DNA of 36,633 nt from a virus: the IMG/VR virus record IMGVR_UViG_3300017964_002012, positions 1 through 36,633 of that record. One strand, 5' to 3'. The notes beneath the pieces are model-generated. The model saw only the letters and a list, made by a program, of their open reading frames with translations. It did no database searches and was not told where the DNA came from. Shown here one piece after another: positions 5,133 to 34,700 of the stretch (position 1 is the first letter of the stretch; each line of letters opens with the position of its first letter). The translations under genes and the position numbers were made by a program.

Positions 5133-5340
5133 AGAAATTTGGATAGCAATTAGTAATTACTTGCCTGAAAGAGTTAAATTAGATTGTGCTATCGATTATG
5201 TTAAAACATTAGTTGATATGGATATAGATTCTAAAGTCATTAAAGCCGCAGGTGAATATGATGAAAAATTGCAACAAGCAATAGAAACTGTGCTCGACGA
5301 AGAAATCGACGAAGAAGACAACTATTTTGAGGAAGAATGA
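5101..5340 (+). CDS. Small acidic protein between uvsX and uvsY
   Basis: This 79-residue protein starts inside the uvsX 3' end and overlaps uvsY by 4 bases (ATGA). The C-terminal 15 residues are almost all acidic (EEIDEEDNYFEEE). A second possible start is the ATG at 5113. I do not recognise a domain. Its location inside the uvsX-uvsY pair suggests a role in recombination or DNA mimicry, but that is inference. Coding is well supported by the continuous overlapping gene chain. Confidence 0.7.
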   Translation: MENQMTANQIEEIWIAISNYLPERVKLDCAIDYVKTLVDMDIDSKVIKAAGEYDEKLQQAIETVLDEEIDEEDNYFEEE

Positions 5341-5795
5341 GTTGGTATTCAAAAATAAGTCAAGATATTAGTAAAATACCCGAATGCATACTGTACTTTA
5401 ATAATGAATTAACTTTAGCAAAAAAAGAAATAGGTATATGGGGCAATCTTGAAAAAAATAGTGCCGCAATGCCGGGACAAGTTGAACACCGATTTAATCA
5501 ATTGCAGGAAATCGAGGCTATTCTAGAATATCTTAATATCGAAAAAAGAAGATTACGATCAACTGTATTTAAAAAATTCTTAGAAAACTATCAAAGAGCA
5601 TTATCATCTAGAGACGTAGAAAAGTATGTCGACGGAGAAGCAGATGTGGTCGACATGGAAAAAATTGTAAATGAATTTGCATTAATCAGAAACAAGTGGC
5701 TGGGTTTAGTTAAAGGTCTAGACCAAAAACAATGGCAACTTACTAACATTGTCAAACTTAGAGTCGCTGGTATGGAAGATGCATCAATCAAATAA
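5337..5795 (+). CDS. uvsY: UvsY recombination mediator
   Basis: This 152-residue helical protein matches the size and style of T4-type UvsY, which loads UvsX onto gp32-covered ssDNA. The conserved end of marine phage UvsY is visible: KWLGLVKGLDQKQWQLTNIV followed by KLRVAGMEDASIK, comparable with the helical C-terminal segment of T4 UvsY. The protein is rich in Lys and Glu with long predicted helices. It follows uvsX by one small gene and overlaps that gene by 4 bases and the next by 17 bases, consistent with one operon. Confidence 0.75.
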   Translation: MSWYSKISQDISKIPECILYFNNELTLAKKEIGIWGNLEKNSAAMPGQVEHRFNQLQEIEAILEYLNIEKRRLRSTVFKKFLENYQRALSSRDVEKYVDGEADVVDMEKIVNEFALIRNKWLGLVKGLDQKQWQLTNIVKLRVAGMEDASIK

Positions 5796-6366
5796 AATTA
5801 TATTAACCGATGTTGACGGTGTTCTTCTCGAATGGGAAAAACATTTTAGACAATGGATGATGTCCAGGGGATTCACACTAAGAAAAGGTGCTGAAAAAAA
5901 GTATTCCATGATTGAAAGATATGGAATAAAAAAAGAACTAAAGGAATCACTCATTGAAGAATTTAATAAATCTGCATGGATGTCAATACAAGAGCCCATG
6001 CCCGATTCACAAACTTGGGTAAAACTATTGCACGCCGAAGGTTGGACATTTATACCAATAACATCACAAACTACCGATATACCTGCACAAGAATTAAGGA
6101 AAAAAAGACTGAAAGAATTATTTGGCGGTACTGTGTTTGAAAATTTTATTATATTAGACACAGGGGCTCACAAAGATGCGGCCTTGGCCGAATTTCATGG
6201 AACGAATTTATGGTGGATAGAAGATAAATGGTCTAACGCAAAAAAAGGATTAGAATTTGGATTAAGACCGTTGATCTATAATCATACATATAATCAAAAA
6301 TTTTATGACAAAAAGATCACTAGAGTAAATAATTGGAAACACATTTATCAAATTATCAATAAATGA
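5779..6366 (+). CDS. HAD-superfamily phosphatase
   Basis: The N-terminus carries HAD motif I, DVDGV, at residues 11-15 (nucleophile D11, acid/base D13). A motif II-like Ser/Thr lies in PITSQTTD, and a motif IV-like acidic pair (WWIEDKWSNAKKG) is near residue 145. At 195 residues it is about the size of 5'(3')-nucleotidase-like HAD enzymes found in T4-like marine phages. The ATG at 5779 is chosen over the upstream one at 5749 because motif I then lies at the usual distance; this start overlaps uvsY by 17 bases. Substrate unknown; a nucleotide or end-processing role would fit the neighbours. Confidence 0.75.
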   Translation: MHQSNKIILTDVDGVLLEWEKHFRQWMMSRGFTLRKGAEKKYSMIERYGIKKELKESLIEEFNKSAWMSIQEPMPDSQTWVKLLHAEGWTFIPITSQTTDIPAQELRKKRLKELFGGTVFENFIILDTGAHKDAALAEFHGTNLWWIEDKWSNAKKGLEFGLRPLIYNHTYNQKFYDKKITRVNNWKHIYQIINK

Positions 6367-6384: not shown

Positions 6385-7650
6385 ATGTTTGAAAAAGAAA
6401 AAAAATATTTCCCAATAAAAACAAAAACGGCTTGCCAACTCAAGTGGAATTGGTCTACAATTATTTTGACCGAAGGAACGACCAGTAGTTGTCACAGATG
6501 TCTCAAAGTACCTTTGGACAAAGACAATTTTGATAATTTTCATAACTTGCCACACAAGATAAAAGAACGCGAAATTATGTTACAAGGTAAATGGCCCACA
6601 AAAGAAAACGGTGGTTCGGGACATTGCACATACTGTAAAGATATTGAGGACTCCGGAGGGTTGAGTGATAGACAGCATCATTTAAACATACCTAACCAAG
6701 TTCCGGAAGAATTAGAAAATGATACCACACTTACCAAAATAACTCCAAAGGTTTTAGAAATTTTTCTAAATAAAACGTGTAATCTTAAATGCACTTATTG
6801 TAATACAAGAAACAGTACACAATGGAATATTGAATCAAAAAAATTTGGTCCACTTAAAGACACAAACGGAAATGAATTTTCTGGATATACTTTCAGTGAA
6901 AGTGTGCCCGAACATCGACAACTTTTTGAAAAATCCATGGATTGGATTAAAAGAAACGGTAGTAAATTAACTAGACTACATTTACTGGGTGGGGAAACTT
7001 TTTATCAATCAGAACTACAAGAAGTAATTGATACATTATCGTCACTGAAAAATCCAAACCTAGAACTTAATATTGTTTCTAATTTAATGGTTAAAGAAAA
7101 TACTTACAAAAACTATATAGAGCAAATCAAAAAACTTTGCATAGATAGAAACATTGGTAGATTTGATCTCACTGTCAGCATAGATGGTTGGGGCAAGGAA
7201 GCCGAGCTCGCTAGATTTGGTTTGAAGTTGGATCATTGGGAAAAACTATTCCAATATACGGTCAATCAAAAATGGATTTTTTTGAATACCAATCAAGTCA
7301 TTACTGCTTTAACCATGCGTACTATTCCGGATTTAATTAATATAATACAAAAATATAGAAAAATAAGAACTATAAATCAAGAAATTACATTTGTTGATGG
7401 AAGAGAATGGATGCATCCTAAAATTTTTGGGAAAAAATTTTGGGAAAACGATATCAAAAAAATATTAGATATCATGCCAGAAGATAATGAAAATAATAAA
7501 AATGCCAAAAAATATATGGCAGGTTGTTTAAACTCTTTACCAGATGAACAAAATAAAAAGTTAATACAAGAATTAAAATATTTTTTAGATCAATTAGATC
7601 GTAGAAGAAACACAAATTGGAAAGAAGTCTATCCTTATTTAGATATATAA
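6385..7650 (+). CDS. Radical SAM protein with N-terminal Cys cluster
   Basis: The radical SAM CxxxCxxC motif is CNLKCTYC (C132, C136, C139), followed by a GGE motif (LLGGETFYQ) for SAM binding and a VSIDGWG strand. Before it lies a Cys-rich region (C17, C36, C39, C81, C84) resembling an auxiliary iron-sulfur (SPASM/twitch-like) site placed N-terminally instead of C-terminally. 421 residues. It begins the glycan island just after the HAD gene. Relatives in marine phages are usually left without a reaction; modification of a peptide or sugar is possible. The family call is firm, the substrate unknown. Confidence 0.85.
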   Translation: MFEKEKKYFPIKTKTACQLKWNWSTIILTEGTTSSCHRCLKVPLDKDNFDNFHNLPHKIKEREIMLQGKWPTKENGGSGHCTYCKDIEDSGGLSDRQHHLNIPNQVPEELENDTTLTKITPKVLEIFLNKTCNLKCTYCNTRNSTQWNIESKKFGPLKDTNGNEFSGYTFSESVPEHRQLFEKSMDWIKRNGSKLTRLHLLGGETFYQSELQEVIDTLSSLKNPNLELNIVSNLMVKENTYKNYIEQIKKLCIDRNIGRFDLTVSIDGWGKEAELARFGLKLDHWEKLFQYTVNQKWIFLNTNQVITALTMRTIPDLINIIQKYRKIRTINQEITFVDGREWMHPKIFGKKFWENDIKKILDIMPEDNENNKNAKKYMAGCLNSLPDEQNKKLIQELKYFLDQLDRRRNTNWKEVYPYLDI

Positions 7651-7654
7651 TAGT

Positions 7655-8335
7655 ATGAGTTTAAAAGTATATGTGGGTTGGGATTCTCGAGAAGATATAG
7701 CATATCAGGTATGTGAGCATTCCATTAAAAGAAGAGATTCTTTGGCAGAAGTAATTCCTCTCAAACAAAATGAGATGAGAGCACAAGGAATTTACACCAG
7801 AGAAAAAGATAAACTTGCCTCTACAGAATTTACATTTACAAGATTTTTTGTACCTTACTTAAACGACTACAAGGGTTGGGCAGTATTTTGTGACTGTGAT
7901 TTTGTATGGCGTGTATCTACAAAAGAACTAGAACAATACTGCGATGATTCAAAAGCGGTAGTGTGCGTACAACACGATTACCAACCAAAAGAAACAACAA
8001 AAATGGATGGACAGTTACAAACAGTGTATCCTAGAAAAAATTGGAGTTCTATGGTATTATGGAATTGTGGTCATCCAAAAAATAAAATACTAACCACAGA
8101 TTTTTTAAACGAACAAACTCCAAAATTCTTACACAGATTTAGTTGGTTGGAAGATTCAGAAATAGGCTCTTTACCACATCATTACAACTGGTTAGTTGGT
8201 TGGTACAAAGAACCCGAAGACGGCAAACCAAAAATATTACATTACACAGAAGGCGGGCCATGGTTTGATGGTTATCGAGAATGTGAATATGCCGATGTAT
8301 GGAAGAAAGAAGTTATAAATCTTTTTTCAAATTAA
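7655..8335 (+). CDS. GT-A fold glycosyltransferase (GT8-like)
   Basis: This 226-residue protein starts with a nucleotide-binding strand (LKVYVGWDSRE) and has a DxD motif, DCD, at residues 80-82 (AVFCDCDFVW), typical of metal-dependent GT-A enzymes. A late LHYTEGGPW stretch resembles the C-terminal His metal-ligand region of GT8-type enzymes. It probably transfers a sugar from a nucleotide-sugar donor in the cytoplasm. It follows the radical SAM gene by 4 bases and overlaps the opposing gene tail to tail by 23 bases. Donor and acceptor are unknown. Confidence 0.75.
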   Translation: MSLKVYVGWDSREDIAYQVCEHSIKRRDSLAEVIPLKQNEMRAQGIYTREKDKLASTEFTFTRFFVPYLNDYKGWAVFCDCDFVWRVSTKELEQYCDDSKAVVCVQHDYQPKETTKMDGQLQTVYPRKNWSSMVLWNCGHPKNKILTTDFLNEQTPKFLHRFSWLEDSEIGSLPHHYNWLVGWYKEPEDGKPKILHYTEGGPWFDGYRECEYADVWKKEVINLFSN

Positions 8336-9041
8336 AATCTTCAATAAATTTTTGTAGAGCAATCACATCATTTTCTAGATGTCGTGATCTCACTTTTTCC
8401 CAAACATATTGATCTCTGTTGGATATATTGAAATTTTTTCTTATTTGCTGTCCTGCATTGTCATCCAATATTTTTTTTGCTTTGAATTCAACTGTCGGCA
8501 AATAGAGACATCTGTTTAACTTACGTGCAACTTTTTGAGTGTAGGAATCGACATGCCAATGCCAAAAATAAACAGGAGCAAGATACCCTAATGTGTTTGT
8601 CCAATTTTTATGAACAGCAAAATGTGCCGCTGGCAAAGGTTCGTCTCCCCATAATTGTGTTTCATTACTTAATTGTTTTGTTCCTTTATTCCTGCCATCG
8701 TTTGGTACGACCATTAAAATTTTATCATCAAAATTATTAAATTGTTCTATTATTAATTGATCCCAGTCTTTAGTTTTAACTTGTACATCGTCTCCCATGA
8801 GCATCACAATGTCGTTGGTTGCTTTTTCACACATCAAATTCCAACTGTAACACGTTGATTGGTTGGGACCTATCGTATAGTGTTTTTCATCAATGATATC
8901 ACGATAATGCTCTAACTTTTCATCATCATCATTTAAATAAAAAAGAAATTCAGTTTCGTTTTTTTGATTAGCCGTTGCTGTATCAATTAAACGTTTGGCT
9001 AATTCGGGTCTTCCTCTAGAAGGACAACAAAACGAAATCAT
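8313..9041 (-). CDS. GT2-like glycosyltransferase
   Basis: This 242-residue protein has an N-terminus (ISFCCPSRGRPELAKRLI) typical of family 2-like transferases, an acidic NDDDE patch at about residues 37-41 and a DxD-like GDDV at 83-86. A HWHVDSYT segment may supply late-domain residues. It is the last gene of a four-gene minus-strand operon (transferase, epimerase, FkbM methyltransferase, GT-B-like protein), overlapping the epimerase gene by 4 bases. Likely acts on a surface polysaccharide or glycolipid precursor. The GT-A call is moderate to good; specificity unknown. Confidence 0.7.
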   Translation of the reverse strand: MISFCCPSRGRPELAKRLIDTATANQKNETEFLFYLNDDDEKLEHYRDIIDEKHYTIGPNQSTCYSWNLMCEKATNDIVMLMGDDVQVKTKDWDQLIIEQFNNFDDKILMVVPNDGRNKGTKQLSNETQLWGDEPLPAAHFAVHKNWTNTLGYLAPVYFWHWHVDSYTQKVARKLNRCLYLPTVEFKAKKILDDNAGQQIRKNFNISNRDQYVWEKVRSRHLENDVIALQKFIEDFNLKKDL

Positions 9042-10042
9042 ATTAATTTATTTTTCCAAGTATCGGGTGTGTGTTCATTAATAATTTCTAAAGGTAAATG
9101 ATATTGAAATTTTTTTGTTCCTCTAGATCTGATATATTCTGCTGTTTTTTTAACAGACTGTCTCATATTTGTTGTTGTTTTATATCCTAGGAGTGTTCTA
9201 GCCTTGTCAGAAGAACACGTTGCTAATTTTACTTCTTTTGGTCTATCTTTATGATGTATAGGATTTAGATTTACACCTGTTTCATTGGCACACGCTTCTG
9301 CCAATTGATTTATGGTAACAGGTTCTTCGTCGGGTCCTATGTTAACTACTTCACCTACTACATTATCATTAAATGCCAATGCATTTAAACAATACAAACA
9401 ATCGTCGATATAACTAAAACATCTTTTCTGTTCGCCATCTCCGTATATGATCGGCTGTTTACCTTGCAACATCCTGTTCAACATTATACTCATTACATTT
9501 CTAAAAGGATCATCATATTTCTGTCGAGGTCCTACAATATTATGAGGCACAGCAATAACATATTCCACACCGTGTGTTTCACATAGATTTTTTAAAACGT
9601 CTTCACCGGCTTTTTTTGCAATACCATATGGATCTTGTGGTCGACATTCGTAAGTTTCTTTATAAGGTAATTCGTCATGATGTCCATATCTTGCCATACT
9701 CGAGCAATATACAATCCTTTTGACATTATTTCTAATAGCCGCAGTAATTGTAGTTACAGAGGCTTCAAAAATATTTCTAGTAACTAAAACTGGAGAAAAT
9801 ACCGATAGACCTTCGTATGCCGTGGCCGCTGTATGATAGACAATATCGCAGTCTTTCATTGCTTTAGTCAAATTTTCTAAATCGCAACAATCTATTTGAT
9901 GAAACTCCACATCTTGTGGTACATTATCAACATACCCACCAATCATGTTATCATTACCAGCAACAGTGTGTCCGTTTGATAACATCAGGTCTGCTAAATG
10001 AGATCCAAGGAATCCTGCAACTCCAGTTATAAAAATTTTCAT
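9038..10042 (-). CDS. NAD-dependent sugar epimerase/dehydratase (extended SDR)
   Basis: This 334-residue protein has the Rossmann GxxGxxG (G7, G10, G13 in TGVAGFLGSH), the catalytic YxxxK (Y139, K143) and a preceding Ser-rich strand (VYCSSMA), which together define extended short-chain dehydrogenases acting on nucleotide sugars. The length is normal for UDP-glucose 4-epimerase or dTDP-glucose dehydratase-type enzymes. It would make an activated sugar for the neighbouring transferases. It overlaps its neighbours on both sides by 4 bases, so one minus-strand operon is clear. The exact sugar cannot be read from the sequence. Confidence 0.9.
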   Translation of the reverse strand: MKIFITGVAGFLGSHLADLMLSNGHTVAGNDNMIGGYVDNVPQDVEFHQIDCCDLENLTKAMKDCDIVYHTAATAYEGLSVFSPVLVTRNIFEASVTTITAAIRNNVKRIVYCSSMARYGHHDELPYKETYECRPQDPYGIAKKAGEDVLKNLCETHGVEYVIAVPHNIVGPRQKYDDPFRNVMSIMLNRMLQGKQPIIYGDGEQKRCFSYIDDCLYCLNALAFNDNVVGEVVNIGPDEEPVTINQLAEACANETGVNLNPIHHKDRPKEVKLATCSSDKARTLLGYKTTTNMRQSVKKTAEYIRSRGTKKFQYHLPLEIINEHTPDTWKNKLI

Positions 10043-10677
10043 ATACGATTATTTACAAATACCTTATCCGGCCAAATATTAATTAGTGTTCTAAATCCTA
10101 GATCTTCTAGATATTTTTCAATCTCAATATTACTCGATTGATATTTTTTAGAATTATTATTCAATTCTATCATTAAAAATTTACATTTTTTTAAAGTTTT
10201 TTCACCACCTTTTAAAACTTTCATTTCAAAGCCTTCCACATCAATTTTGATCAAATCAACATTATCAAAATTAAAATCGTCAATTGTTTGTAGTTGTATA
10301 TTACCATTTTCGATTATTCTTTTGGCTTGTGTAAAATCATCATTAGATAGAGATACCATGTCATTACTATCACCTAACGCAATCATTTTTGGATCAACAT
10401 TTACATATGGAGCAACGTTTCTGGTCAAACAAGTAAAATGAGTTTTATCTGGTTCGAAAGCATGAACCCGCTGACTATATTTGGCTATTGCTATTGACCA
10501 CGTTCCACACCATGCTCCGATGTCTAACACAGTTCTAAAAGTTTGATGTTGAGACTTGCACCATTCAATAAAACTATTCAAACATTTATTTTGTGTGAAA
10601 GGTTGTCCGTTTTTCCATTGCTCGATATGTATATCATTAGATGGTACCCATAAATTATTAACTTTCTCTATCTTCAT
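10039..10677 (-). CDS. FkbM-family methyltransferase
   Basis: This 212-residue protein carries SAM motif I (LDIGAWCGTWS, residues 51-61), the acidic ribose-binding strand end (HAFEPD, 72-77) and the family-typical IKIDVEGFE followed by VLKGGEKTL. FkbM enzymes are O-methyltransferases often found in polysaccharide and glycan loci, where they methylate sugar hydroxyls. Gene order and 4-base overlaps on both sides put it in the same operon as the epimerase. It is therefore likely to cap or decorate a glycan, by inference. Confidence 0.88.
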   Translation of the reverse strand: MKIEKVNNLWVPSNDIHIEQWKNGQPFTQNKCLNSFIEWCKSQHQTFRTVLDIGAWCGTWSIAIAKYSQRVHAFEPDKTHFTCLTRNVAPYVNVDPKMIALGDSNDMVSLSNDDFTQAKRIIENGNIQLQTIDDFNFDNVDLIKIDVEGFEMKVLKGGEKTLKKCKFLMIELNNNSKKYQSSNIEIEKYLEDLGFRTLINIWPDKVFVNNRI

Positions 10678-11489
10678 AATATTTTAAGATCCTGTAAAAT
10701 CTTTACTGCAACACCATTGTCAAATTCTTCCGGAGTGAACTGTTGATAACAAAGACTGTTGAACCAGTCCGTAGGGTCTTGCCAGTTGGGATTTTCGATA
10801 TCTGCTAAATTCGTATTAGTAATCGGTGCCGCAAAACTACTAGGATGACAAAAAACCGGTATACCCATCGCTATTGCTTCAACGGCAACTGTGCTTACAC
10901 TAGTCACAACTGCCCAAGCATTTTTAAGATCCTCGGACAATGGCACATCTGCTTCACTCGGACCACTGGTTCCTCTACCTCTAGGTTTTTCTCTCCATTT
11001 AAGCGGACGGTCTGTATACTGACTAAGTTCGTGCATAGTATTAACATGCCAATTATTTTCACCAAAACAATTTTGCATATTATAACTGCTCGGACATATC
11101 AGTATGTGCTCGCCTTTTTTTCTAATGTCATTTATCTTAACGTCAAATTTTTTAAAACGATCCGAAGGACAACCTTCAATCAAAGGAACGTGTATTCCGT
11201 TTTTTGAAATCCTCCACCAATGATTATCTGGTTTTAAATTCTTATTATTAAATCTTCCAAAGTATGGTGCATCTGTATACCACCAATCTTGTTTGCCATA
11301 CATTTTTAGGTATTTGATCATGTCAAGATTATGATTTACCAATCCCCAAAACATACACGGAGTATCAGGAGATTGCTCGACGCTGTTATCGGCCACAAAT
11401 ACCTTTGTTGGCCATGTTTTTTTAACACCGTTAAAGACTTCCCACGCCTTACTCTTGGGATTACTAAACGGTGCGTAAATTGTTAACAT
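10674..11489 (-). CDS. GT-B-like capsule/LPS transferase family protein, paralog 1
   Basis: This 271-residue protein is one of four homologs in this island. The shared C-terminal block reads WAVVTSVSTVAVEAIAMGIP here: a strand, a Ser/Thr-rich turn, a helix with a central Glu, then GIPVF. It is followed by PI..T.LADIENP and a W..L.Y..FT..E...G tail. This resembles the donor-binding end of GT-B transferases of the capsule-synthesis/Kdo-transferase type. First gene of the minus-strand glycan operon, starting opposite the GT61 gene. Enzyme activity is inferred from fold-like motifs and context. Confidence 0.6.
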   Translation of the reverse strand: MLTIYAPFSNPKSKAWEVFNGVKKTWPTKVFVADNSVEQSPDTPCMFWGLVNHNLDMIKYLKMYGKQDWWYTDAPYFGRFNNKNLKPDNHWWRISKNGIHVPLIEGCPSDRFKKFDVKINDIRKKGEHILICPSSYNMQNCFGENNWHVNTMHELSQYTDRPLKWREKPRGRGTSGPSEADVPLSEDLKNAWAVVTSVSTVAVEAIAMGIPVFCHPSSFAAPITNTNLADIENPNWQDPTDWFNSLCYQQFTPEEFDNGVAVKILQDLKIL

Positions 11490-11518
11490 TAATTTAATCT
11501 TTTATTAAAAATATTATC

Positions 11519-11547
11519 TTGGACATTTGTATATTTTATAGTATAAT
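11519..11547 (+). promoter_or_regulatory. Sigma70-like promoter of the plus-strand glycan operon
   Basis: TTGGAC (11519-11524) and a perfect TATAAT (11542-11547) are separated by 17 bases. The predicted start is near 11554, only about 7 bases before the ATG at 11561, leaving no room for a normal ribosome-binding site. It lies in the 71-base divergent gap between the two glycan operons. Confidence 0.6.
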
Positions 11548-11560
11548 TAACAGAAATACA

Positions 11561-12640
11561 ATGATTTATAAAAATATTACCAGCATAAAGTATTTTGAAG
11601 AACGATTTCAAAAATACGACTCGGCAATAAGTTACTCGGTAAACTATCACGAACAAGCACCACAAACAGAGTTTGTTTCAAATCCAACATTTGTGGGGTC
11701 GTTCAATGACTGTGTTGTACATAGTTTGCCTTTTTTGATTACAAATGATAACCATCTGATCACAAATCATGTATGGCCTTTATTAGATAAAGTAAGGAAC
11801 AAACCAAATAAATCACATAATTTATGGACAAAATGGGGAGACAATGTTGATATAGATCTTCCGTCGGTCTCAAAAGTTTTTAACGAAGAGCAAACCTATG
11901 TGTGGTTGCCCATCGACGAACCCAGTTCAGAAAATCCATGGCACATCTGGATAGATGTTGTATCTAAATTTAGATTGGTGTTAAATGTTTGTAACAAACC
12001 CTTAAAAGATTTTGTTTTCATTTTAAGTAATGAAAGCAAGTATTTTAATCGTGTTGTAAAAGAAATTTTTCCCAATATAAAATATCATGTGATGCCTAAA
12101 CAATCAGTTTGGAAATTTAAACATTTGATAGTACCAACAATGAGCAATCACAAAGACGGCATACTTGTGCCCGACATGGCGACCTGGATTAGAAAAAATA
12201 TACAAATTAAAAGTGGTGCTAACAACAGAAAAATTTTTATATCGAGAGATGATGCAGTTATTAGAAAATTGACAAATTCCGAGGAGTTGTTCATGTTCTT
12301 GAAAGGATGGGAAATAGTGACCTTATCAAAATTAACTATCAAAGAACAGATGAAAGTATTCGCAGAGGCTTCACACGTAATGAGCACACACGGTGCCGGT
12401 TTGACAAATCTTTTATGGTGTCAACCCGGAACCAAAGTATACGAATTAAGTGTTCCAGAACAGATAACAAAAAAAGTTTATCCAGTATTAAGTTATTGCT
12501 TACATTTGAAGCATAAAGTAATATTAGGTGAATTAGTTAAACTTAATTTTGACAAAAAACCTTCTAATATAAAACGTTTGAGAAACGACGGAAATATTAG
12601 AATAAATGTAAAAGATGTGTTAGAAAAAATAAATCAATGA
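11561..12640 (+). CDS. GT61-family glycosyltransferase
   Basis: This 359-residue protein has the GT61 (DUF563) core: KIFISRDDA, then EEL and a GWEIV strand, then EQMKVFAEASHVMSTHGAG and TNLLWCQPGTKVYEL. The HGAGLTN motif is the family hallmark. GT61 members transfer xylose, GlcNAc and related sugars to glycans and polysaccharides. The ATG at 11561 is chosen because the upstream TTG at 11519 is the -35 box of the promoter. The 3' end overlaps the next gene by 4 bases. First gene of a six-gene plus-strand glycan run. Confidence 0.85.
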   Translation: MIYKNITSIKYFEERFQKYDSAISYSVNYHEQAPQTEFVSNPTFVGSFNDCVVHSLPFLITNDNHLITNHVWPLLDKVRNKPNKSHNLWTKWGDNVDIDLPSVSKVFNEEQTYVWLPIDEPSSENPWHIWIDVVSKFRLVLNVCNKPLKDFVFILSNESKYFNRVVKEIFPNIKYHVMPKQSVWKFKHLIVPTMSNHKDGILVPDMATWIRKNIQIKSGANNRKIFISRDDAVIRKLTNSEELFMFLKGWEIVTLSKLTIKEQMKVFAEASHVMSTHGAGLTNLLWCQPGTKVYELSVPEQITKKVYPVLSYCLHLKHKVILGELVKLNFDKKPSNIKRLRNDGNIRINVKDVLEKINQ

Positions 12641-13452
12641 TTTACTTGAGCAATACCAACCGGAAAGTTACTGAAAAGTATATTGAATTTTTTCATAAAG
12701 GAATAAAAGATTCCTTAATAATTCCAACCAACGAGATATCGTCAAAGAAAGATATCGACGCTATTTGTTTTTTTGGTATTTTAAGAGGAACAAATTTAAT
12801 TTGGGAATTTTGTAAAAAGAATAAAATCAATTTCTTTTACATGGATAGACCGTATTGGGGAGAAAGCAGAACATCACCTTACTGGCTAAGGATAGTAAAA
12901 AATAACCATGTTAAAAATATGTTAGAGCAAAGACCCGATGACCGTTTTAAACAATCGTATAAAGGAGATATAAAACCTTATCATAAAAGCGGTAAAAAAA
13001 TATTAGTTTGTCCGCCAACCGAATCAATTGGTATTTTTTTTAATTGTACGAACTGGCTAGATGATACGTTGAAAATTCTTAGACAGCATACCGATAGAGA
13101 AATTTTAATTAGAGATAAGCCGTACAACCCGTCAGCATTTTTAGGAAAAGACGGAATAATACACACAGGAAAAAATACCACTATGACAGACAAGGAAAAG
13201 ATCAACTGGAATGACATCCATGCTGTGGTAACTTTTAATAGTTCAATAACACTCAAGGCATTGGCTAATGGAGTTCCGGTATTTACAGATGAAAACAATT
13301 GTGCTTTTCCAATAGCAGAAAAAGACTTTTCAAAAATTGAAAAACCATTGTATCAAGATCCCAGGCCGTTGTTTTACAGTCTTGCTTATGGTCAGTTTAA
13401 TGCAAATGAAATGTCGGATGGAACAGCATGGAGAACATTAAATGGATGTTGA
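12637..13452 (+). CDS. GT-B-like capsule/LPS transferase family protein, paralog 2
   Basis: This 271-residue homolog of the proteins at 10674, 13442 and 16121 has a C-terminal block HAVVTFNSSITLKALANGVP followed by VF, and then PIAEKDFSKIEKP and FYSLAYGQF. An N-terminal half shares the FYMDRPYWGE / Y..R..K.N and RPDDRFK elements with paralog 1. It ends slightly earlier than paralogs 3 and 4, at AWRTLNGC, without the final basic helix. It overlaps GT61 by 4 bases and paralog 3 by 11 bases. Probably a cytoplasmic sugar transferase; activity unproven. Confidence 0.6.
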   Translation: MIYLSNTNRKVTEKYIEFFHKGIKDSLIIPTNEISSKKDIDAICFFGILRGTNLIWEFCKKNKINFFYMDRPYWGESRTSPYWLRIVKNNHVKNMLEQRPDDRFKQSYKGDIKPYHKSGKKILVCPPTESIGIFFNCTNWLDDTLKILRQHTDREILIRDKPYNPSAFLGKDGIIHTGKNTTMTDKEKINWNDIHAVVTFNSSITLKALANGVPVFTDENNCAFPIAEKDFSKIEKPLYQDPRPLFYSLAYGQFNANEMSDGTAWRTLNGC

Positions 13453-14425
13453 AATTTTTAGAAGAACAGTAAAAGATAGGAAAAGAGGAGCCAGTTGGAA
13501 ATTACTAGAAGACATGGCCGACGGAATTCGTGCTTGTGGAGATAATCCAATTATTATAAACAAAAATAAAGAAGGACCCACAGAACCGGGAGAAATGGTT
13601 CCAACCACAAAAATCTGTTGTATGTTTGGCTATGGTGGCACAAATCAAAAACATCACACAAAAGGAAGACGTCTCGAACTTGTTAATAATGCAAAATCTA
13701 AAGGATCTTATGTTATAACATTCGATGGAGGAATTCTTTCTAGTTTTGGAAATACTATAACACACCCCGAACATCATTGGCGAGTATCTTTATTCAGTCC
13801 AATGAATAATGGAAATTTTTTATCGGATAATTCACCAAAGGACAGATGGGAAAATATGTGTAAAATTTGGAATGTCAAATACGAACCATGGAGAAAATCT
13901 AATACAAACGATCCAATATTGTTTGTTCTTCAGCCACAAGACAACTGGTCGATGAACGAATTAGATCCTATTAAATGGCTTAATGACGTGTATAATAAAA
14001 TTAGACCGTTAACAAATCGACCGTTGATGGCTAGGCCACATCCAAATCATATGGCACAAATGATCAAAAGAAAAAACGAACTACCTAAAGATGTAGAACT
14101 ATTAAGTGGACCGACTAGTTGGTCTGGGGATAATAAAAAATATTATAGATTTAATTTTCAAGACGTAATTGCAAACTGTCATGCAGTAATAAGTCATAAC
14201 TCAACTGCAACTGTTGATAGTTGTATTAGAGGAATTCCAACATTCTGTACTTCGGATTTAGCATTATGTTGGCCTGTAGCAAATAAAGATCTAACAATGA
14301 TAGAAACCCCGGAACTCCCGGATCGAACGCAATGGGTATATGATATAGGCTATAAGATGTGGAGTACTGAAGAAATCAAAAGTGGAAAAGTTTTTAAAAG
14401 ATTCAAGGAAAAATTAGGATTATGA
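13442..14425 (+). CDS. GT-B-like capsule/LPS transferase family protein, paralog 3
   Basis: This 327-residue member is the longest of the four paralogs. It contains the RPLMARPHPNH strand-turn typical of the GT-B C-terminal domain and the family block HAVISHNSTATVDSCIRGIP, then PVANKDLTMIETPELPDR and a W..EEI.SGK tail. An additional N-terminal stretch of about 55 residues contains VPTTKICCMFGYGGTNQKH. It overlaps paralog 2 by 11 bases and the sulfotransferase gene by 4 bases. A transferase adding a sugar to a surface glycan is the likely role. Confidence 0.62.
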   Translation: MDVEIFRRTVKDRKRGASWKLLEDMADGIRACGDNPIIINKNKEGPTEPGEMVPTTKICCMFGYGGTNQKHHTKGRRLELVNNAKSKGSYVITFDGGILSSFGNTITHPEHHWRVSLFSPMNNGNFLSDNSPKDRWENMCKIWNVKYEPWRKSNTNDPILFVLQPQDNWSMNELDPIKWLNDVYNKIRPLTNRPLMARPHPNHMAQMIKRKNELPKDVELLSGPTSWSGDNKKYYRFNFQDVIANCHAVISHNSTATVDSCIRGIPTFCTSDLALCWPVANKDLTMIETPELPDRTQWVYDIGYKMWSTEEIKSGKVFKRFKEKLGL

Positions 14426-15201
14426 AATTTGCTAGATTCACTAGAATAGAACAGGAATTAGAAAGTTGTGCTTTCTTAATTTTAAGTTTTCCTCGTTGTG
14501 GAAGAACATGGATGAAACATTTACTTGGTTATTATATTGAAAAAAAATACGAAGTCCCTTTTACTAAATGGTTAGATAGACCTAGGAAAGGAATACCTCG
14601 TATTAGTTTTCGACACGATTTTATGAGCACCACAGGACATATCCCATGGGACGTGTATTTTGAAATACAAGATAATAAAAAATTTATTTTTACGGACAGC
14701 ATGAAACATAATAAAATTGTTTATCTTTTTAGAGATCCGTTGGATGTGTTATTCAGTTATTGGCCTTACTTGCAAAGTATTCCATATAAAAATTTTACAC
14801 CACCACAATATGAAAATATTTTAGACTTCGCACACGATAAAAAATGGGGTTTGAATATCATAATAAATTTTATGAATATGCAAGTTGAACACTATAAACA
14901 AAATACCAATAATAAACTTGTTATCAATTACGAAAATATGAAAAACAAAGACACCGAATGGGAAAAGTTAATCACTTTTATTTTTGGGGATTTTGATAAA
15001 AATATATTTCTCTATGCCAACGAACAAACGAAATTTTCTAAAATGCAAGAAAAAAATGATAAAAATAAGCCAGAAGATATAAGATTTTATAGACGCGGAG
15101 GTTCAAACTATATTAATGAATTACCAATATCACAACAAGAAATTTTAAAAAGTTGGCCGGGACTAAATCAAATTAAAAATAATATAAAAAATATAAGTTA
15201 A
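14422..15201 (+). CDS. PAPS-dependent sulfotransferase-like protein
   Basis: This 259-residue protein has the 5'-phosphosulfate loop as FPRCGRTWMKHLLG (residues 23-36; the usual form is PKSGTTW) and the 3'-phosphate motif as KIVYLFRDPLDVLFSYW (98-114), with R104 and S112 in the expected places. These are the two defining PAPS-binding motifs of the sulfotransferase fold. Within a glycan island it would add sulfate to a sugar or lipid. It overlaps paralog 3 by 4 bases. A phage-borne sulfotransferase is uncommon. Acceptor unknown; the family call is strong. Confidence 0.82.
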   Translation: MKFARFTRIEQELESCAFLILSFPRCGRTWMKHLLGYYIEKKYEVPFTKWLDRPRKGIPRISFRHDFMSTTGHIPWDVYFEIQDNKKFIFTDSMKHNKIVYLFRDPLDVLFSYWPYLQSIPYKNFTPPQYENILDFAHDKKWGLNIIINFMNMQVEHYKQNTNNKLVINYENMKNKDTEWEKLITFIFGDFDKNIFLYANEQTKFSKMQEKNDKNKPEDIRFYRRGGSNYINELPISQQEILKSWPGLNQIKNNIKNIS

Positions 15202-15215
15202 ATATAAAAATCATA

Positions 15216-16124
15216 ATGAAAATTAAAGTAATAACATCGTACAAACCGGGTACCTGGGAACAATATTCTCGTAAAGGAATTGAAAGTATGGCTCAGAATT
15301 TCCCGGCAGACGTTGATATAGTAGTATATGCAGAAGAACCAAAGCCTCAATGCAGTTATGAAAGAATAAAATGGATTGATTTAAACTCCGCTGAACCAGA
15401 ATTATTTAATTTTAAAAACAAACACAAACACGATCCTGTCGCCAACGGAGAACTTCAAGAGATACCAGACGGTGTAAGAAGACCAATTGAGCTGAAAGAC
15501 AAAGGTGGAAAAGATGCTACCAAAGGATCATTTTTATGGGCGGCTGTTCGATTTGCTAACAAAGTGTTCTGTGTTATTAACGGTGTAAGAAATTCTAAAG
15601 ATTACGATTATGTCATATGGGTCGATGCAGATACTTTCACATTTAGACCTGTACCAAAAAACTTTTTTGAATCTTTATTACCAGAAAACACCATGGTCAC
15701 TTACCTAGGAAGAGAAAATCCCAATTTAAAGGATGGCGGAAAATATCCGGAATGTGGTTTTGTTGGTTATAATTTAAAACATCATGAGATACAAAATTTC
15801 GTAAACGAATGGGAACAACTTTATGTGACCGACGAAGTATTTAAATTATTGGAATGGCATGATTCATATGTGTTTTGGCATCTTGTAAAAAAATATCAAA
15901 AAGAAAAACATATAGCAGTCAACGATATAGGATACTGGAAAGGCATAAAAGGTCATCATGTTTTTGTTAATAGCGAACTTGGACTTTACATGGATCACAT
16001 GAAAGGAAAAAGAAAAAAATTAGGGAGCAGTGCCAAAAATGATTTTAGACAACAAAAATTAACAGATGTAAAAAACTTAACAGAAATAGAATACTGGACA
16101 AAAGTTCCACCAACATTAAAATGA
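15216..16124 (+). CDS. GT-A fold glycosyltransferase with DAD motif
   Basis: This 302-residue protein starts MKIKVITSYKPGTW and has a DxD site, D137-A138-D139, in YVIWVDADTF. A GFVGYNL strand and a W.DSYVFW helix follow, as in small GT-A enzymes that use nucleotide sugars. The C-terminal GLYMDHMKG may carry a metal-binding His. It overlaps paralog 4 by 4 bases, so it belongs to the same transcript. Exact family not assignable by eye; the GT8-like protein at 7655 is only distantly similar. Confidence 0.7.
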   Translation: MKIKVITSYKPGTWEQYSRKGIESMAQNFPADVDIVVYAEEPKPQCSYERIKWIDLNSAEPELFNFKNKHKHDPVANGELQEIPDGVRRPIELKDKGGKDATKGSFLWAAVRFANKVFCVINGVRNSKDYDYVIWVDADTFTFRPVPKNFFESLLPENTMVTYLGRENPNLKDGGKYPECGFVGYNLKHHEIQNFVNEWEQLYVTDEVFKLLEWHDSYVFWHLVKKYQKEKHIAVNDIGYWKGIKGHHVFVNSELGLYMDHMKGKRKKLGSSAKNDFRQQKLTDVKNLTEIEYWTKVPPTLK

Positions 16125-16996
16125 AAATAGCAATCTTTCCAGAATACGGTAGTTTAAATTCAAAGCCTGTGTTTGAGGCATTCATAAAACATCTACAAGA
16201 AAAAAATGAAAAGATTATGATTAACAAGTACGATAACACTTGTGATATTGCTGTTATATGGAGTGTGCTTTGGCGGGGAAGAATGGAAAAAAATAAAGAA
16301 GTTTGGGATTTTTTTAAAAAACATAATAAGCCAATAGTAGTATTAGAAGTAGGTGGAATCAAAAGAAATGTCACATGGAAAATGGGAATAAACGGAATTA
16401 ATAGAGACGCCGATTTTGCCAATCATGTTTTTGATGACAAGAGATGGCCAAAATTTAATATAGAAATGAAACCATGGAACAAAACTGGAAATGTCATTGT
16501 AATATGTGGACAACACGATACTAGTAACCAATGGGTAGGGCAACCCAAAATGAATGTGTGGGTTGAACAACAAATAAAAGAAATAAGAAAATATACACAA
16601 CGCCCGATCTTGGTTAGACCACATCCTAGAAATCCTTTTGAATTAAAAAATAAAACATGGCCCGCTGTAAGAATCAAACGTCCTATAAGAGATTTATCAA
16701 CATACGACGATACAGATTTTAAAAAAACGTTGACATCCACGTGGGCAGTTATTAATCATTCTTCTAATCCTGCCATGGAATCTGTATTCAATGGTATACC
16801 TGTGTTTGTATCGGAATCTAGTTTATGTTATGACGTAGGAAATAGTTCAATCACAGATATAGAACATCCGGCTATGCCAAACAGACAACAATGGGCAAAT
16901 AAATTAGCATATACAGAATGGACAACTGACGAAATTAGAGACGGTATACCATGGAGAAGAATTAGAGAAAGGTTGTTAGAAAAATACATTAAATAA
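16121..16996 (+). CDS. GT-B-like capsule/LPS transferase family protein, paralog 4
   Basis: This 291-residue fourth paralog has QRPILVRPHPRNPF, corresponding to the RPLMARPHP stretch of paralog 3, and WAVINHSSNPAMESVFNGIP followed by VFVSESSLCYDVG. It then has ITDIEHPAMPNRQQW and a tail (WTTDEIRDG.PWRRI) that is shared with the others. Its N-terminus, MKIAIFPEYGSLNSKPVFEA, is a Rossmann-type strand-loop-helix. It overlaps the DAD transferase gene by 4 bases and is followed 4 bases later by the GT42-like gene. Same functional inference as its paralogs. Confidence 0.62.
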   Translation: MKIAIFPEYGSLNSKPVFEAFIKHLQEKNEKIMINKYDNTCDIAVIWSVLWRGRMEKNKEVWDFFKKHNKPIVVLEVGGIKRNVTWKMGINGINRDADFANHVFDDKRWPKFNIEMKPWNKTGNVIVICGQHDTSNQWVGQPKMNVWVEQQIKEIRKYTQRPILVRPHPRNPFELKNKTWPAVRIKRPIRDLSTYDDTDFKKTLTSTWAVINHSSNPAMESVFNGIPVFVSESSLCYDVGNSSITDIEHPAMPNRQQWANKLAYTEWTTDEIRDGIPWRRIRERLLEKYIK

Positions 16997-17000
16997 AATT

Positions 17001-17744
17001 ATGAAAATAGTACATGATAAAAGAAAAGGTGTTATTGATCCGATTGAATGGGAACCTTATACAGGTGAGACAGTTATTGTGAGGACCGTGATAAAAGGTG
17101 GAAAGAAAACTCAAGAAACTGCTTTTTTTGAGGACAAAGTCAAAGCGGTTCCAACGGGAAATGCTTATTGTATCGGTAACGGACCAAGTCGTAAAAATTT
17201 TGATTTAACCTTATTAAAATCTACTGGACAAACGTATGGGTGTAATGCATTATATAGAGATTTTACTCCAGACTATTTGTTTACAGTTGATAGACAAATG
17301 ACAAAAGAAATTGTAGAAAATGAAGTTGATAAAAAAACTGTGTGTTATGCTCCTAGTTTGGAAGTAAATGCATATCCAGAAGCAAAATTAAATCTTATCC
17401 CGTACAACCAACACTATACCAGTGGTAATCAAGCCATATGGACAGCGGCCATACACGGTCATAAAAATATCTACCTAATTGGATTTGATTTTAGAGAATA
17501 CGGTAAGGGAGAACTAAACAACATTTATCAAGATTCAAAAAACTATGGAGAAAGAAATAGTGATATGATCTTTACCGAATGGTACAGTACTTTTCGAAAA
17601 ATAATTAAACAACGACCTTATTGTAATTTTATAATTGTTCATGACAATCCTCCAAACTACTTGTACAATACTCAAACAGGAACAGATCTAGGCAATACTA
17701 AATTAATAACTTATAGAGAATTTACAGAGTCAATCCTAAATTAA
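17001..17744 (+). CDS. GT42/MAF-like (sialyltransferase-fold) glycosyltransferase
   Basis: This 247-residue protein has AYCIGNGPSRKNFD at residues 55-68, then YGCNALY, and later YTSGNQAIWTAAIHGHKNIY followed by LIGFDF. The order GNGPS ... CN..Y ... TSG ... G.K.IYL.G.DF matches the pattern of Campylobacter CstII-type GT42 sialyltransferases and of the related MAF/DUF115 flagellin glycosyltransferases. It could add a nonulosonic acid or similar sugar, but no CMP-sugar synthesis gene is in the window. It closes the plus-strand glycan run and overlaps the opposing SprT-like gene tail to tail by 23 bases. Confidence 0.7.
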   Translation: MKIVHDKRKGVIDPIEWEPYTGETVIVRTVIKGGKKTQETAFFEDKVKAVPTGNAYCIGNGPSRKNFDLTLLKSTGQTYGCNALYRDFTPDYLFTVDRQMTKEIVENEVDKKTVCYAPSLEVNAYPEAKLNLIPYNQHYTSGNQAIWTAAIHGHKNIYLIGFDFREYGKGELNNIYQDSKNYGERNSDMIFTEWYSTFRKIIKQRPYCNFIIVHDNPPNYLYNTQTGTDLGNTKLITYREFTESILN

Positions 17745-18198
17745 GTTTTTGTAGTTTGCTACGCCAACTGTAAAAGGATTTATTATGATTTGCTGTCTTG
17801 TCTTTTTTTATGGTCATTTGCCATAAATGAATCATTTCGTGTGCTAGTGTTTCAACAAAATCTTTCCAGGTAGGATACTTATAATTCATGTCTATATAAT
17901 ACTCGATAGAATGATGTTCTATATGAGGTATGTTTCCTTCCGGTACTTTTACTATCCGAGCGTCCCAGGCACAGATACACTGCCCCCAGCAATCCTTTAA
18001 TCTTCTTATGTAAAAAGGAGGCATTTTTAATGAGTTCTCAAATAGTCCTTTGTTTAATATATTGAACCAACTCTGACATTGTGCCACTGTTGGTCTATGA
18101 TCCGTTACTTTGGCTCTTTTTTCTAGAGCATTTTTTACCTGATATCGCACTTTTTTGAGTGCTAATTTTGATACTTTTTTTTGTTTTTTTAACTTCAT
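17722..18198 (-). CDS. SprT-like zinc metalloprotease
   Basis: The zinc-binding HExxH is seen as LAHEMIHLWQ, and a third ligand is likely in the HNKSFYSW segment about 14 residues on, as in SprT/SPRTN proteins. SPRTN proteases cut proteins cross-linked to DNA; phage members are poorly studied but would suit a replication neighbourhood. I use the ATG at 18198 (158 residues); an in-frame ATG at 18213 would add five residues. The N-terminus is very basic (KLKKQKKVSKLALKK). It is transcribed away from the 18270 gene. Confidence 0.8.
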   Translation of the reverse strand: MKLKKQKKVSKLALKKVRYQVKNALEKRAKVTDHRPTVAQCQSWFNILNKGLFENSLKMPPFYIRRLKDCWGQCICAWDARIVKVPEGNIPHIEHHSIEYYIDMNYKYPTWKDFVETLAHEMIHLWQMTIKKDKTANHNKSFYSWRSKLQKLNLGLTL

Positions 18199-18222
18199 AT
18201 AAAGTACGCACATAATGGGTGG

Positions 18223-19613: not shown

Positions 19614-21083
19614 ATGAGTTCATGTAAATTAGTAATTAAGGATGAAGTGAATGTTAAATTTGAAGATTTATCATTAGAGTTTCGTAAAAAATTACACAAT
19701 AAATTTAAATTTGAGATTCCGTATGCCCGTCATCTACCGGCAGTGAAATTAGGAAGATGGGATGGAAAAGTTAGTTTTTTTGGTTTGGGAGGTACCAGTT
19801 ATCTAGCATTAGTGCCTCAAATTTTACCAATACTTGAAGAACATAATGTTTATGTCGACCTTAACGACGAGCGTGAAAATCATAATTTTGAATTTAAACT
19901 GATAGACAAAAATTATTTAAGTGATATTACTTGGCCCACAAATCATCCGTGTGGAGGACAACCGATAGAATTACGAGACTATCAAGTCGAAATAATTAAT
20001 AAATTTTTAGAAAATCCTCAGTGTATACAAGAAGTTGCCACTGGTGCAGGTAAAACAATTATCACTGCCGCACTATGTAAACTAGTCGAAGATTACGGAA
20101 GAACATTAACAATAGTTCCAAATAAAAGTTTAGTAACACAAACCGAGGACGATTTTCTTGCTTGTAATTTGGATGTGGGAGTTTATTATGGAGATCGCAA
20201 AGAACTAGGAAGACAAAACACAATAGCCACTTGGCAATCTCTTAATGTGCTAGAAAAAAGAAGTAAAGACGATCACTCTACTGAATTTTTAGAAGCAATA
20301 CAAAATGTCAATACAATTATAGTTGATGAGGTACATATGGCCAAGGCCGATGTTTTAAAAAGAATGTTGACGGGACCATTTGCTCATTGTGGTATACGTT
20401 GGGGTCTCACAGGAACAGTGCCTAAAGCAGATTTTGAATTTTATGGATTAAAATGTTCAATTGGTGAAGTTGTAAATAAAATACCCGCCAAAGAATTACA
20501 AGATAAAGGAGTGTTAGCAAAATGTGATGTAAATATTTTACAAACACAAGATCATCCTGCATTTAAAAATTATCAAGAAGAATTAAAATGGCTGACAACA
20601 GACGAAACACGAATGGAATGGATTGCTAAAACTGTTGACAGTATAGCAAGTTCAGGTAATACATTAATTTTAGTTGATAGAATATCTGCTGGAGAGATTT
20701 TAGAAAAAAAATTGAAAGGATCAACTTTTATTTCGGGAGCAACAAAAAATATAGATAGAAAGGAACACTATGATGAAGTATCTACTGCAACAAATAAAAT
20801 TATTATTGCCACATATGGAGTTGCCAGCGTTGGCATTAATATCCCTCGTATTTTTAATTTGGTTCTTATAGAACCTGGTAAATCGTTTGTTAGAGTAATA
20901 CAATCGATAGGACGAGGAATAAGAAAAGCCGAAGATAAAGATTCAGTACAAATCTGGGATATAACCAGTTCGTGTAAATTTGCAAAAAGACATTTAACTG
21001 AAAGAAAAAAGTTTTACAAAGAGGCAAATTACCCTTATAATATAGATAAAATAAATTATGAAAATCCTTACATTAGAAAATAG
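19614..21083 (+). CDS. uvsW: UvsW-like DNA helicase (superfamily 2)
   Basis: This 489-residue protein has Walker A (ATGAGKT, residues 142-148) after a Q-motif-like region (ELRDYQVE), the DEVH box at 238-241, the GLTGT motif III region, and motif VI as QSIGRGIRKA. An N-terminal domain of about 110 residues with GRWDGKVSFF is typical of UvsW. In T4 the enzyme unwinds R-loops, branch-migrates recombination intermediates and helps switch replication from origin to recombination mode. Size and motif order match the family. It overlaps the next gene by 26 bases. Confidence 0.93.
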   Translation: MSSCKLVIKDEVNVKFEDLSLEFRKKLHNKFKFEIPYARHLPAVKLGRWDGKVSFFGLGGTSYLALVPQILPILEEHNVYVDLNDERENHNFEFKLIDKNYLSDITWPTNHPCGGQPIELRDYQVEIINKFLENPQCIQEVATGAGKTIITAALCKLVEDYGRTLTIVPNKSLVTQTEDDFLACNLDVGVYYGDRKELGRQNTIATWQSLNVLEKRSKDDHSTEFLEAIQNVNTIIVDEVHMAKADVLKRMLTGPFAHCGIRWGLTGTVPKADFEFYGLKCSIGEVVNKIPAKELQDKGVLAKCDVNILQTQDHPAFKNYQEELKWLTTDETRMEWIAKTVDSIASSGNTLILVDRISAGEILEKKLKGSTFISGATKNIDRKEHYDEVSTATNKIIIATYGVASVGINIPRIFNLVLIEPGKSFVRVIQSIGRGIRKAEDKDSVQIWDITSSCKFAKRHLTERKKFYKEANYPYNIDKINYENPYIRK

Positions 21084-30029: not shown

Positions 30030-30069
30030 TTTGACCTTTATGTTTTTACCATTAAATATATCTATCAAG

Positions 30070-31925: not shown

Positions 31926-32750
31926 TTAGGCAAGTGTGTGTCTGGCATTCAAACGCCAGAGTAATCTTTCGTGTTTTGGGTCTAGGCTATCTACTGTTCC
32001 TCTAGCCGAATGTAGTAAAGAAATATTATCCCACATTAAAAAATCTTTTTCTTCCCAATGGTGCTCATAAACATAATTTTCGTTTATTGCGTGTTCTTGT
32101 AACGTCTTCATGAGTGCATCACTTTTGTCTTGTTCCATTCCCAATATTTTTCTAATATGACCAAACACAGAAAATAAACAATTTTCACCTGTCGTCCAGT
32201 GAGGCATAACCAGTGGATGATATACAGGTTCCCCTCCACCAATTCCTTTTAGTTCATCCGGGTCGGGTACAGCCGCTAGATGATAGTCAGTAGCGTGTTC
32301 GTGTACACAAACTTTTCCTGTAATTTTCTTTTTTAAATCTAGGGGAAGATCTCTATACACAGCCGATTGATCAGAGAACACAGTTGTTCCACCTTCCTGA
32401 GCCACTTTTAATGAATATAAAAAACTATGCGTAGGAGGATTTTGTAAAAATGATTGGTCGATGTGCCAAATCTCTGGACTCAATTGTCCTTTGGTTTTGT
32501 CATTTGTGAGCACATATATTTCTGGATGACTCTGCAATGCATTGGTTCTCCATTTTGCATGTCTGACTGGCTCACCTACTTTTTTTATAATCGATACCAG
32601 TTGATCTGCTGAAAGATCAATGTTCTTAAAAATAAGCAATTTATACTGATCTTGCAGTTGAACTATCTCGTCAAAGTTCTCGATCATCTCATCATATGAT
32701 GTTTTAATTTTTACACCGTAACTACTGTTTTCTAAATTTTCAATTTCCAT
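31926..32750 (-). CDS. TauD/TfdA-family Fe(II)/2-oxoglutarate dioxygenase
   Basis: This 274-residue protein has the facial triad HxD as IWHIDQSF (H96, D98) and the distal His in WDNISLLHSA (H247), followed by the Arg-containing ERLLWRLN (R262/R266) that binds 2-oxoglutarate. GGTTVFSDQ is also typical of TauD. These enzymes hydroxylate substrates such as taurine, sulfonates or other small molecules and need Fe(II). Whether the target is a sulfonate cannot be read from sequence. It ends 5 bases beyond the cupin gene and diverges from the next radical SAM gene. Confidence 0.9.
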   Translation of the reverse strand: MEIENLENSSYGVKIKTSYDEMIENFDEIVQLQDQYKLLIFKNIDLSADQLVSIIKKVGEPVRHAKWRTNALQSHPEIYVLTNDKTKGQLSPEIWHIDQSFLQNPPTHSFLYSLKVAQEGGTTVFSDQSAVYRDLPLDLKKKITGKVCVHEHATDYHLAAVPDPDELKGIGGGEPVYHPLVMPHWTTGENCLFSVFGHIRKILGMEQDKSDALMKTLQEHAINENYVYEHHWEEKDFLMWDNISLLHSARGTVDSLDPKHERLLWRLNARHTLA

Positions 32751-34612: not shown

Positions 34613-34615
34613 TTT

Positions 34616-34691: not shown

Positions 34692-34700
34692 ACATCGATG

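Follow-up and report, generated by a model that had tools for sequence, protein, structure and literature searches.

The window analysed here, a viral sequence of 36,633 nucleotides (IMG/VR record IMGVR_UViG_3300017964_002012), carries between positions 7655 and 17744 a phage glycan cassette that is real, conserved and modular. We consider it moderately probable that this island is a glycan-assembly cassette lodged in a uvsY-uvsW hotspot and working with the chemistry proposed below, its acceptor being judged separately. A glycosyltransferase (GT) family with the fold of KpsC and without the known nucleophile is one of its two notable points, and what is new here is that one core module repeatedly captures different sulfotransferases.

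By open reading frame (ORF) list and family searches, the island comprises 12 genes encoding nine GT-like proteins, a NAD-dependent epimerase, an FkbM methyltransferase and a PF00685 sulfotransferase; six of the proteins have no significant Pfam family. The original prediction, made from the letters alone, had placed the block at the right coordinates while counting eleven genes and eight transferases or transferase-like proteins. Its epimerase, methyltransferase and sulfotransferase were confirmed by family profiles (PF01370, PF05050/TIGR01444 and PF00685), and there is good support for a set of genes that decorate a glycan. To call that set near-complete was too strong: no flippase, polymerase, ligase or oligosaccharyltransferase was recognised among the 12 proteins, the island has only one sugar-nucleotide enzyme, and no gene for synthesis of 3'-phosphoadenosine 5'-phosphosulfate (PAPS) was found in the window-lineage fragments searched. 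Family searches likewise found no transporter family and no protein with multiple transmembrane segments among the 12, so the island is not a complete surface-polysaccharide locus of the Wzx/Wzy or ABC type.

A leading plus-strand gene (7655; genes are named by their first coordinate) is followed by two divergent, tightly packed groups, the first of four minus-strand genes from 8313 to 11489 and the second of seven plus-strand genes starting at about 11561 (11561, 12637, 13442, 14422, 15216, 16121 and 17001). Many neighbours overlap by 4 bases, as at 14422/14425. Because most of the ORFs recur at full length in related viral contigs, about 15 to more than 20 of them, and because the median ratio of nonsynonymous to synonymous substitution rates (dN/dS) is 0.03-0.09 in the eight island genes tested (gene pairs with measurable dS), we judge them to be genes and not chance ORFs. 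A terminator scan gave chance-level results. The T4 late-promoter box TATAAATA was not enriched and none lay near the island, so no conclusion about expression timing was drawn.

Sequence comparison identifies the window as a fragment of a marine myovirus related to the jumbo phages Atu_ph07, Phosso and CBB. Its UvsX is 70% identical to that of Agrobacterium jumbo phage Atu_ph07 and 69% identical to that of Sinorhizobium phage Phosso; both phages carry uvsX, uvsY and uvsW in the same order, with no island homologues in the stretch examined. The IMG/VR record is a 36.6 kb fragment only, and a search for its own genome gave nothing beyond it. Among relatives, the uvsY-uvsW interval measures 1.3-1.7 kb in two loci (L109, L090), 7-8 kb in three (L080, L098, L100) and 12-15 kb in the window lineage, and in marine relatives it holds mainly GT genes whose order changes. 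It is this variation in size and content that marks the interval, as read from sequence, as a hotspot occupied by the island. Unrelated content in close relatives had been named beforehand as the outcome that would speak against the prediction; close relatives share the core, and more distant ones have rearranged content or almost none.

Such variation among distant relatives, and the absence of some genes from some of them, would also suit a loose set of unrelated accessory genes piled up at a recombination hotspot, serving no single pathway. We think this improbable. Gene order and strand are kept in more than 20 contigs at roughly 50-95% identity, and the gene overlaps, the four paralogues, the purifying selection and a core shared with other phages all argue for joint function.

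The sulfotransferase gene, 14422, encodes a protein that matches PF00685 over residues 18-243 (E 3e-11, 43.7 bits against a cut-off of 22). Both motifs originally reported in it are present. FPRCGRTW is invariant in 18 of 18 aligned homologues, as are R104, P106 and DVLFS of RDPLDVLFS, together with H65 and a C-terminal RxG; the usual Lys of the PKSGTTW-type loop is replaced by Arg in all 18. We take PRCGRTW to be the 5'-phosphosulfate loop, R104..S112 to be the 3'-phosphate site and H65 to be a candidate catalytic His, so that the loop and the R..S site expected of the PF00685 family are both in place. A profile of the 18 homologues matches solved sulfotransferases of both eukaryotes and bacteria (E 5e-5), and a dN/dS of about 0.09, where dS was measurable, indicates purifying selection. 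A genuine PAPS-type sulfotransferase is well supported on these grounds, and sulfuryl transfer is predicted. We found no PF00685 homologue by tblastn in 50,697 INPHARED phages and no sulfotransferase homologue by pattern scan of bacterial genomes; a wider viral search with the sulfotransferase profile returned the same 27 contigs again. Separately, a weak match to adenosine 5'-phosphosulfate (APS) kinase (PF01583, E 3e-7; locus L141) was seen in a relative, at G007:C1:163441-163686 in the 202,913-base record behind L086, where it could be a PAPS-supply gene.

Homologues of 13442 and 15216, its two neighbours, are both present in 28 loci, and in 25 of these the sulfotransferase occupies its slot; the count is not a frequency, because those loci were retrieved through the sulfotransferase itself. 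In L038, L047 and L053 the 13442 and 15216 homologues stand 9-12 bases apart with nothing between them. A tree of 13442 separates the states with and without the sulfotransferase by one branch (support 97/96), which does not give the direction, gain or loss. Within the same hotspot, a PF03567 sulfotransferase occurs in L039, and L060 has a gene that is weakly sulfotransferase-like. Additional genes also sit in recurring slots, among them an AsnB-type amidotransferase (L020-L023), a second FkbM-like gene (L013), a 2-oxoglutarate oxygenase (L024, a sub-threshold match) and an SGNH-like protein. The last of these, so read by eye, makes up the largest unmatched cluster (30 ORFs), and Pfam gave it only a sub-threshold match to DUF6071.

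The closest known system is in the cultured Pelagibacter phage Mosig EXVC030M (MT647606), whose genes 00183-00191 form one tightly packed block resembling the island core. It shares homologues of 7655 (45%) and 15216 (31%) and two KpsC-fold paralogues (E 1e-46 and 3e-44), and it includes two FkbM-like methyltransferases and a sulfotransferase wedged between two GT paralogues. That sulfotransferase, however, belongs to PF03567 and is unrelated to the PF00685 protein of the island; no homologue of the epimerase, GT61 or 17001 was seen in the block, and Mosig is a smaller phage (141 kb, Kyanoviridae) with the block elsewhere in its genome. Its announcement does not mention these genes. In Caulobacter phage CcrColossus, gp126-gp129 are adjacent and comprise one sialyltransferase-like, two KpsC-fold and one 7655-like protein, the similarity of gp126 being weak; this core lies between tail and lysis genes, and neither PF00685 nor PF03567 finds a match in the genome. 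To judge from sequence, sulfation appears to be a decoration that can be exchanged, because close relatives and the Pelagibacter phage carry the same core with different sulfotransferases or none.

The proposal that sulfation is new for this phage type stands narrowly, for PF00685, given the INPHARED result, and fails for sulfotransferases of other families, which occur in marine phages and, in Mosig, even inside the same GT core. Sulfotransferases are already known in phages and are not in themselves new. In the portion of PMC10580990 consulted, Sulfotransfer_3 genes of function called unclear are reported in OM43-phage contigs and a Synechococcus phage; these are likewise marine but belong to PF13469, and that portion describes no glycan-island context. 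Further reports concern marine or environmental phages (PMC12285232, PMC8290583).

The four genes 10674, 12637, 13442 and 16121 form one family (pairwise E 3e-6 to 2e-30). An AlphaFold2 model of 13442, built on an alignment of 43 sequences, has a predicted local distance difference test (pLDDT) score of 84.9, and its top solved Foldseek matches are all retaining 3-deoxy-D-manno-oct-2-ulosonic acid (Kdo) transferases, KpsC, KrkA and WbbB (E from 2e-8, template-modelling score 0.37-0.56), which predicts a KpsC-like GT-B fold for the family. Two motifs mark retaining Kdo transferases, QXXXD, which supplies the nucleophile, and (K/R)xHP, which binds cytidine monophosphate (CMP) (PMC12887879, PMC10148158). 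Exact RPHP, which fits the second, occurs in 27/27 members of the 13442 and 16121 groups, and RxKP takes its place in 16/16 members of the 10674 and 12637 groups. The island paralogues thus share the fold of KpsC (GT107), WbbB (GT99) and KrkA (GT140), and two of them share (K/R)xHP, but sequence similarity is negligible and PF05159 gives no match. Use of CMP-Kdo is supported by gene context: a KdsB homologue adjoins a paralogue in L049, and cyanophage S-SCSM2R has KdsB and KdsA three to four genes downstream of its 7655 homologue, past two unassigned genes. Genes 262-263 of S-SCSM2R were tested as KpsC-like and gave no match.

We propose that the cassette probably makes a small acidic sugar chain bearing methyl and sulfate groups. 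Soluble GTs would assemble a short glycan from activated sugars supplied by the host; the donors for the four paralogues and the sialyltransferase-like protein would most likely be CMP-activated ulosonic acids, host CMP-Kdo for example. One sugar nucleotide would be adjusted by the epimerase, the FkbM enzyme would O-methylate the glycan, and the sulfotransferase would transfer sulfate from PAPS. The core GTs stay constant from virus to virus whereas the decorating enzymes vary in set positions, and related viruses would therefore display chemically different glycans. The acceptor is the least certain part. It is probably cytoplasmic, because export genes are absent, and would then be a virion protein, lipid A-core or DNA. 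A virion (tail or head) protein is slightly favoured over host lipopolysaccharide (LPS) or DNA because the CcrColossus core directly follows tail genes and precedes lysis genes, and we put its chances just short of even; an acceptor outside these three is unlikely. Virion glycosylation has a precedent in mycobacteriophages, where capsid and tail tube proteins bear glycans (Freeman et al. 2023, cited in PMC12619734); those phages are unrelated, the excerpt of PMC12619734 consulted does not mention sulfation, and the island genes would be candidates for such a role.

Several findings weigh against this proposal. None of the four paralogues has QXXXD, with its Asp nucleophile, at the equivalent position, and for that reason we rejected their assignment as retaining beta-Kdo transferases (GT99/GT107/GT140). 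As modelled, they resemble CMP-ulosonate transferases yet fail a defining feature, and given the missing nucleophile they may be GTs for other CMP-sugars or for non-CMP sugars. The sequences themselves show which genes and families are present, their conservation and purifying selection, the filled and empty slots and the core common to cultured phages; the donors, the activities and the single pathway are inferred from them. PAPS supply is a further difficulty, because APS kinase was found neither in Mosig nor in 9 of 10 fragments of related viruses, and SAR11 is said to be without sulfate assimilation. In the window lineage the island lies among replication genes, not structural genes, and a conserved phage porin points to remodelling of the host outer membrane.

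The cassette might instead alter host LPS, its cytoplasmic GTs extending or capping the Kdo/lipid A-core while methyl and sulfate groups mask the receptor, which would block superinfection or keep progeny from being lost onto debris. The best-known cases of surface conversion come from temperate phages, and we noticed no lysogeny gene in the window; both points, like the position of the CcrColossus core genes after tail genes, count against this account. An island without flippase or polymerase genes would nonetheless suit extension of an existing core, the same viruses encode the conserved outer-membrane porin, which in relatives lies beside FkbM-like and KpsC-like genes, and KpsC-type enzymes use Kdo-containing acceptors (PMC10148158). 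We regard LPS as a credible acceptor whose chances fall clearly short of even.

Glycosylation of phage DNA bases against nucleases, with the decorations hypermodifying a DNA glycan, would fit the surroundings of the island, which lies among replication and recombination genes (uvsX, uvsY, uvsW, helicase). It has a parallel in jumbo phage YerA41, which carries an oligosaccharide-like modification of about 1 kDa per thymidine and encodes several GTs (PMC9023294). FkbM methylation, sulfation and KpsC- or sialyltransferase-like enzymes are, however, typical of surface glycans, the CcrColossus module sits with tail and lysis genes, and we noticed no base hydroxymethylase in the window, where no systematic search for one was made. 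A DNA acceptor therefore seems to us a slim prospect.

The core common to the island and the Pelagibacter phage Mosig hints at a SAR11-like host, as does a G+C content of about 33%. The Gram-negative porin encoded by the phage (27382-28356, plus strand; PF13609, E 1.5e-19, hydrophobic N-terminus) has counterparts of 71-81% identity in about 20 viral contigs of relatives, and several of those contigs also carry the island. Within INPHARED, Pelagibacter phage HTVC008M alone has a homologue (40.6%). This conserved porin suggests surface remodelling and a SAR11-like host; a porin search in bacterial genomes did not fix the host. SAR11 genomes contain genes annotated as sulfotransferases, one of them in a hypervariable region (PMC2217521). 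In relatives, the porin has as neighbours KpsC-fold GTs (L121:5220, L139:2999) or FkbM-like genes (L120, L122, L124, L128, L133, L135, L138), and its neighbourhood is possibly a second glycan or surface hotspot.

More broadly, and only tentatively, phages of abundant marine alphaproteobacteria may share a glycan module whose basis is a new KpsC-fold GT family without the nucleophile, and may have repeatedly and independently taken up sulfotransferases from different families; sulfated acidic glycans would then be general and convergent on virions or infected cell surfaces in the ocean. Sulfated glycans are familiar from eukaryotes and algae; a limited literature search found no report of any on, or made by, a phage. 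If true, this would mean a GT enzyme family of uncharacterised chemistry and would raise the question of PAPS supply in hosts thought to be without sulfate assimilation. Because the cultured phage-host pair Mosig/HTCC1062 has this core, the question lends itself to direct testing.

Table 1. Predicted genes of the island and its flanks.
Feature	Coordinates	Strand	Evidence
UvsY homologue, hotspot left anchor	5337..5795	+	~50% to Vibrio phage 2.275.O_006, annotated PF11056 recombination protein
Radical SAM protein, island left edge	6385..7650	+	PF04055 E 6e-6; phrog_1802 E 4e-12
GT-A-like glycosyltransferase, core gene	7655..8335	+	invariant D80xD82; phrog_28018 E 4e-57 (function unknown)
GT family 2-like glycosyltransferase	8313..9041	-	PF00535 weak, E 0.003; phrog_14945 glycosyltransferase E 9e-27
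NAD-dependent sugar-nucleotide epimerase/dehydratase, GalE/LegB-like short-chain dehydrogenase/reductase	9038..10042	-	PF01370 E 3e-48
FkbM-family methyltransferase	10039..10677	-	PF05050 E 1e-18, 68 vs 22.7 bits cut-off
KpsC-fold GT paralogue 1 (RxKP)	10674..11489	-	blastp to other paralogues E 7e-10 to 2e-30; profile A2
GT61 glycosyltransferase	11561..12640	+	PF04577 E 1e-21, 78 vs 27 bits cut-off; called from TTG 11519
KpsC-fold GT paralogue 2 (RxKP)	12637..13452	+	paralogue matches, motif; Mosig homologue 32%
KpsC-fold GT paralogue 3 (RPHP)	13442..14425	+	overlaps sulfotransferase gene by 4 bases; AlphaFold2 and Foldseek
PAPS-type sulfotransferase (PF00685)	14422..15201	+	PRCGRTW, R104..S112, H65, RxG at 224-226
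GT-A fold glycosyltransferase, nearest fold GT6 (alpha-1,3-Gal/GalNAc transferases)	15216..16124	+	invariant D137xD139
KpsC-fold GT paralogue 4 (RPHP)	16121..16996	+	paralogue matches, motif
Sialyltransferase (CST-I/GT42)- or MptE-like protein	17001..17744	+	GNGPS and CNxxY motifs; phrog_4603 alpha-2,3-sialyltransferase E 2e-6
SprT-like metalloprotease-like protein, right edge	17722..18213	-	PF10263 E 4e-10
UvsW-like helicase, hotspot right anchor	19614..21083	+	PF04851/PF00271; 54% to Phosso DNA helicase

The 7655 product is 79-88% identical in relatives, and the annotations of its homologues read sugar transferase in CcrColossus and glycosyltransferase in both Mosig and the Synechococcus phage S-SCSM2R (46%). 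For the epimerase, 89-95% identical in relatives and missing from some, the closest solved structure is UDP-glucose 4-epimerase (E 1e-40); no NCBIfam equivalog reached its cut-off, and a substrate could not be assigned. The FkbM protein also exceeds the TIGR01444 cut-off (E 6e-23, 82 vs 37.7 bits). The TTG start of the GT61 gene is probably wrong and ATG 11561 is preferred, because homologous ORFs in relatives have about 360 codons, consistent with that ATG, and positions 11520-11547 contain a promoter-like box (TGGACA-16-TATAAT). No sequence family was found for 15216; its predicted model is of moderate quality (pLDDT 68), with GT6 fold matches at E 2e-7. The 17001 product has weak Pfam matches (PF06002/PF01973), falls below the curated GT42 cut-off (PF06002, 18.1 vs 25 bits) and matches alpha-2,3/8-sialyltransferase structures at E 0.004. 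Island membership of the radical SAM gene 6385 is uncertain, since in relatives its slot is empty or is filled either by another radical SAM protein or by a homologue of 55% or 76%, and the SprT-like protein is probably outside the glycan module.

The moraphage paper PMC12619734 was tried as a lineage identity, and its text as searched names neither Atu_ph07 nor Phosso; the hosts of moraphages are predicted there to be mostly Bacteroidota. Adjoining UvsY is a 5'-deoxyribonucleotidase-like protein (5749-6366, plus strand; PF06941, E 3e-6). Within the hotspot of other viruses, a cytidylyltransferase-like domain (PF01467) is fused to a mannose-6-phosphate isomerase-type cupin (PF01050) at L076:12401-13174 and in relatives (17 ORFs). 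The 36 kb fragment encodes four radical SAM proteins (28399-29955, minus; 30031-31356, plus; 32802-33806, plus; and 6385-7650, plus), two of which have SPASM domains. A TauD-family dioxygenase (31926-32750, minus; E 6e-45) and an FTR1-type iron permease (34767-35372, minus; E 1.5e-11) are possible metabolic genes, and three tandem tRNA genes (Glu, Ala, Thr) lie at 34538-34776 on the minus strand.

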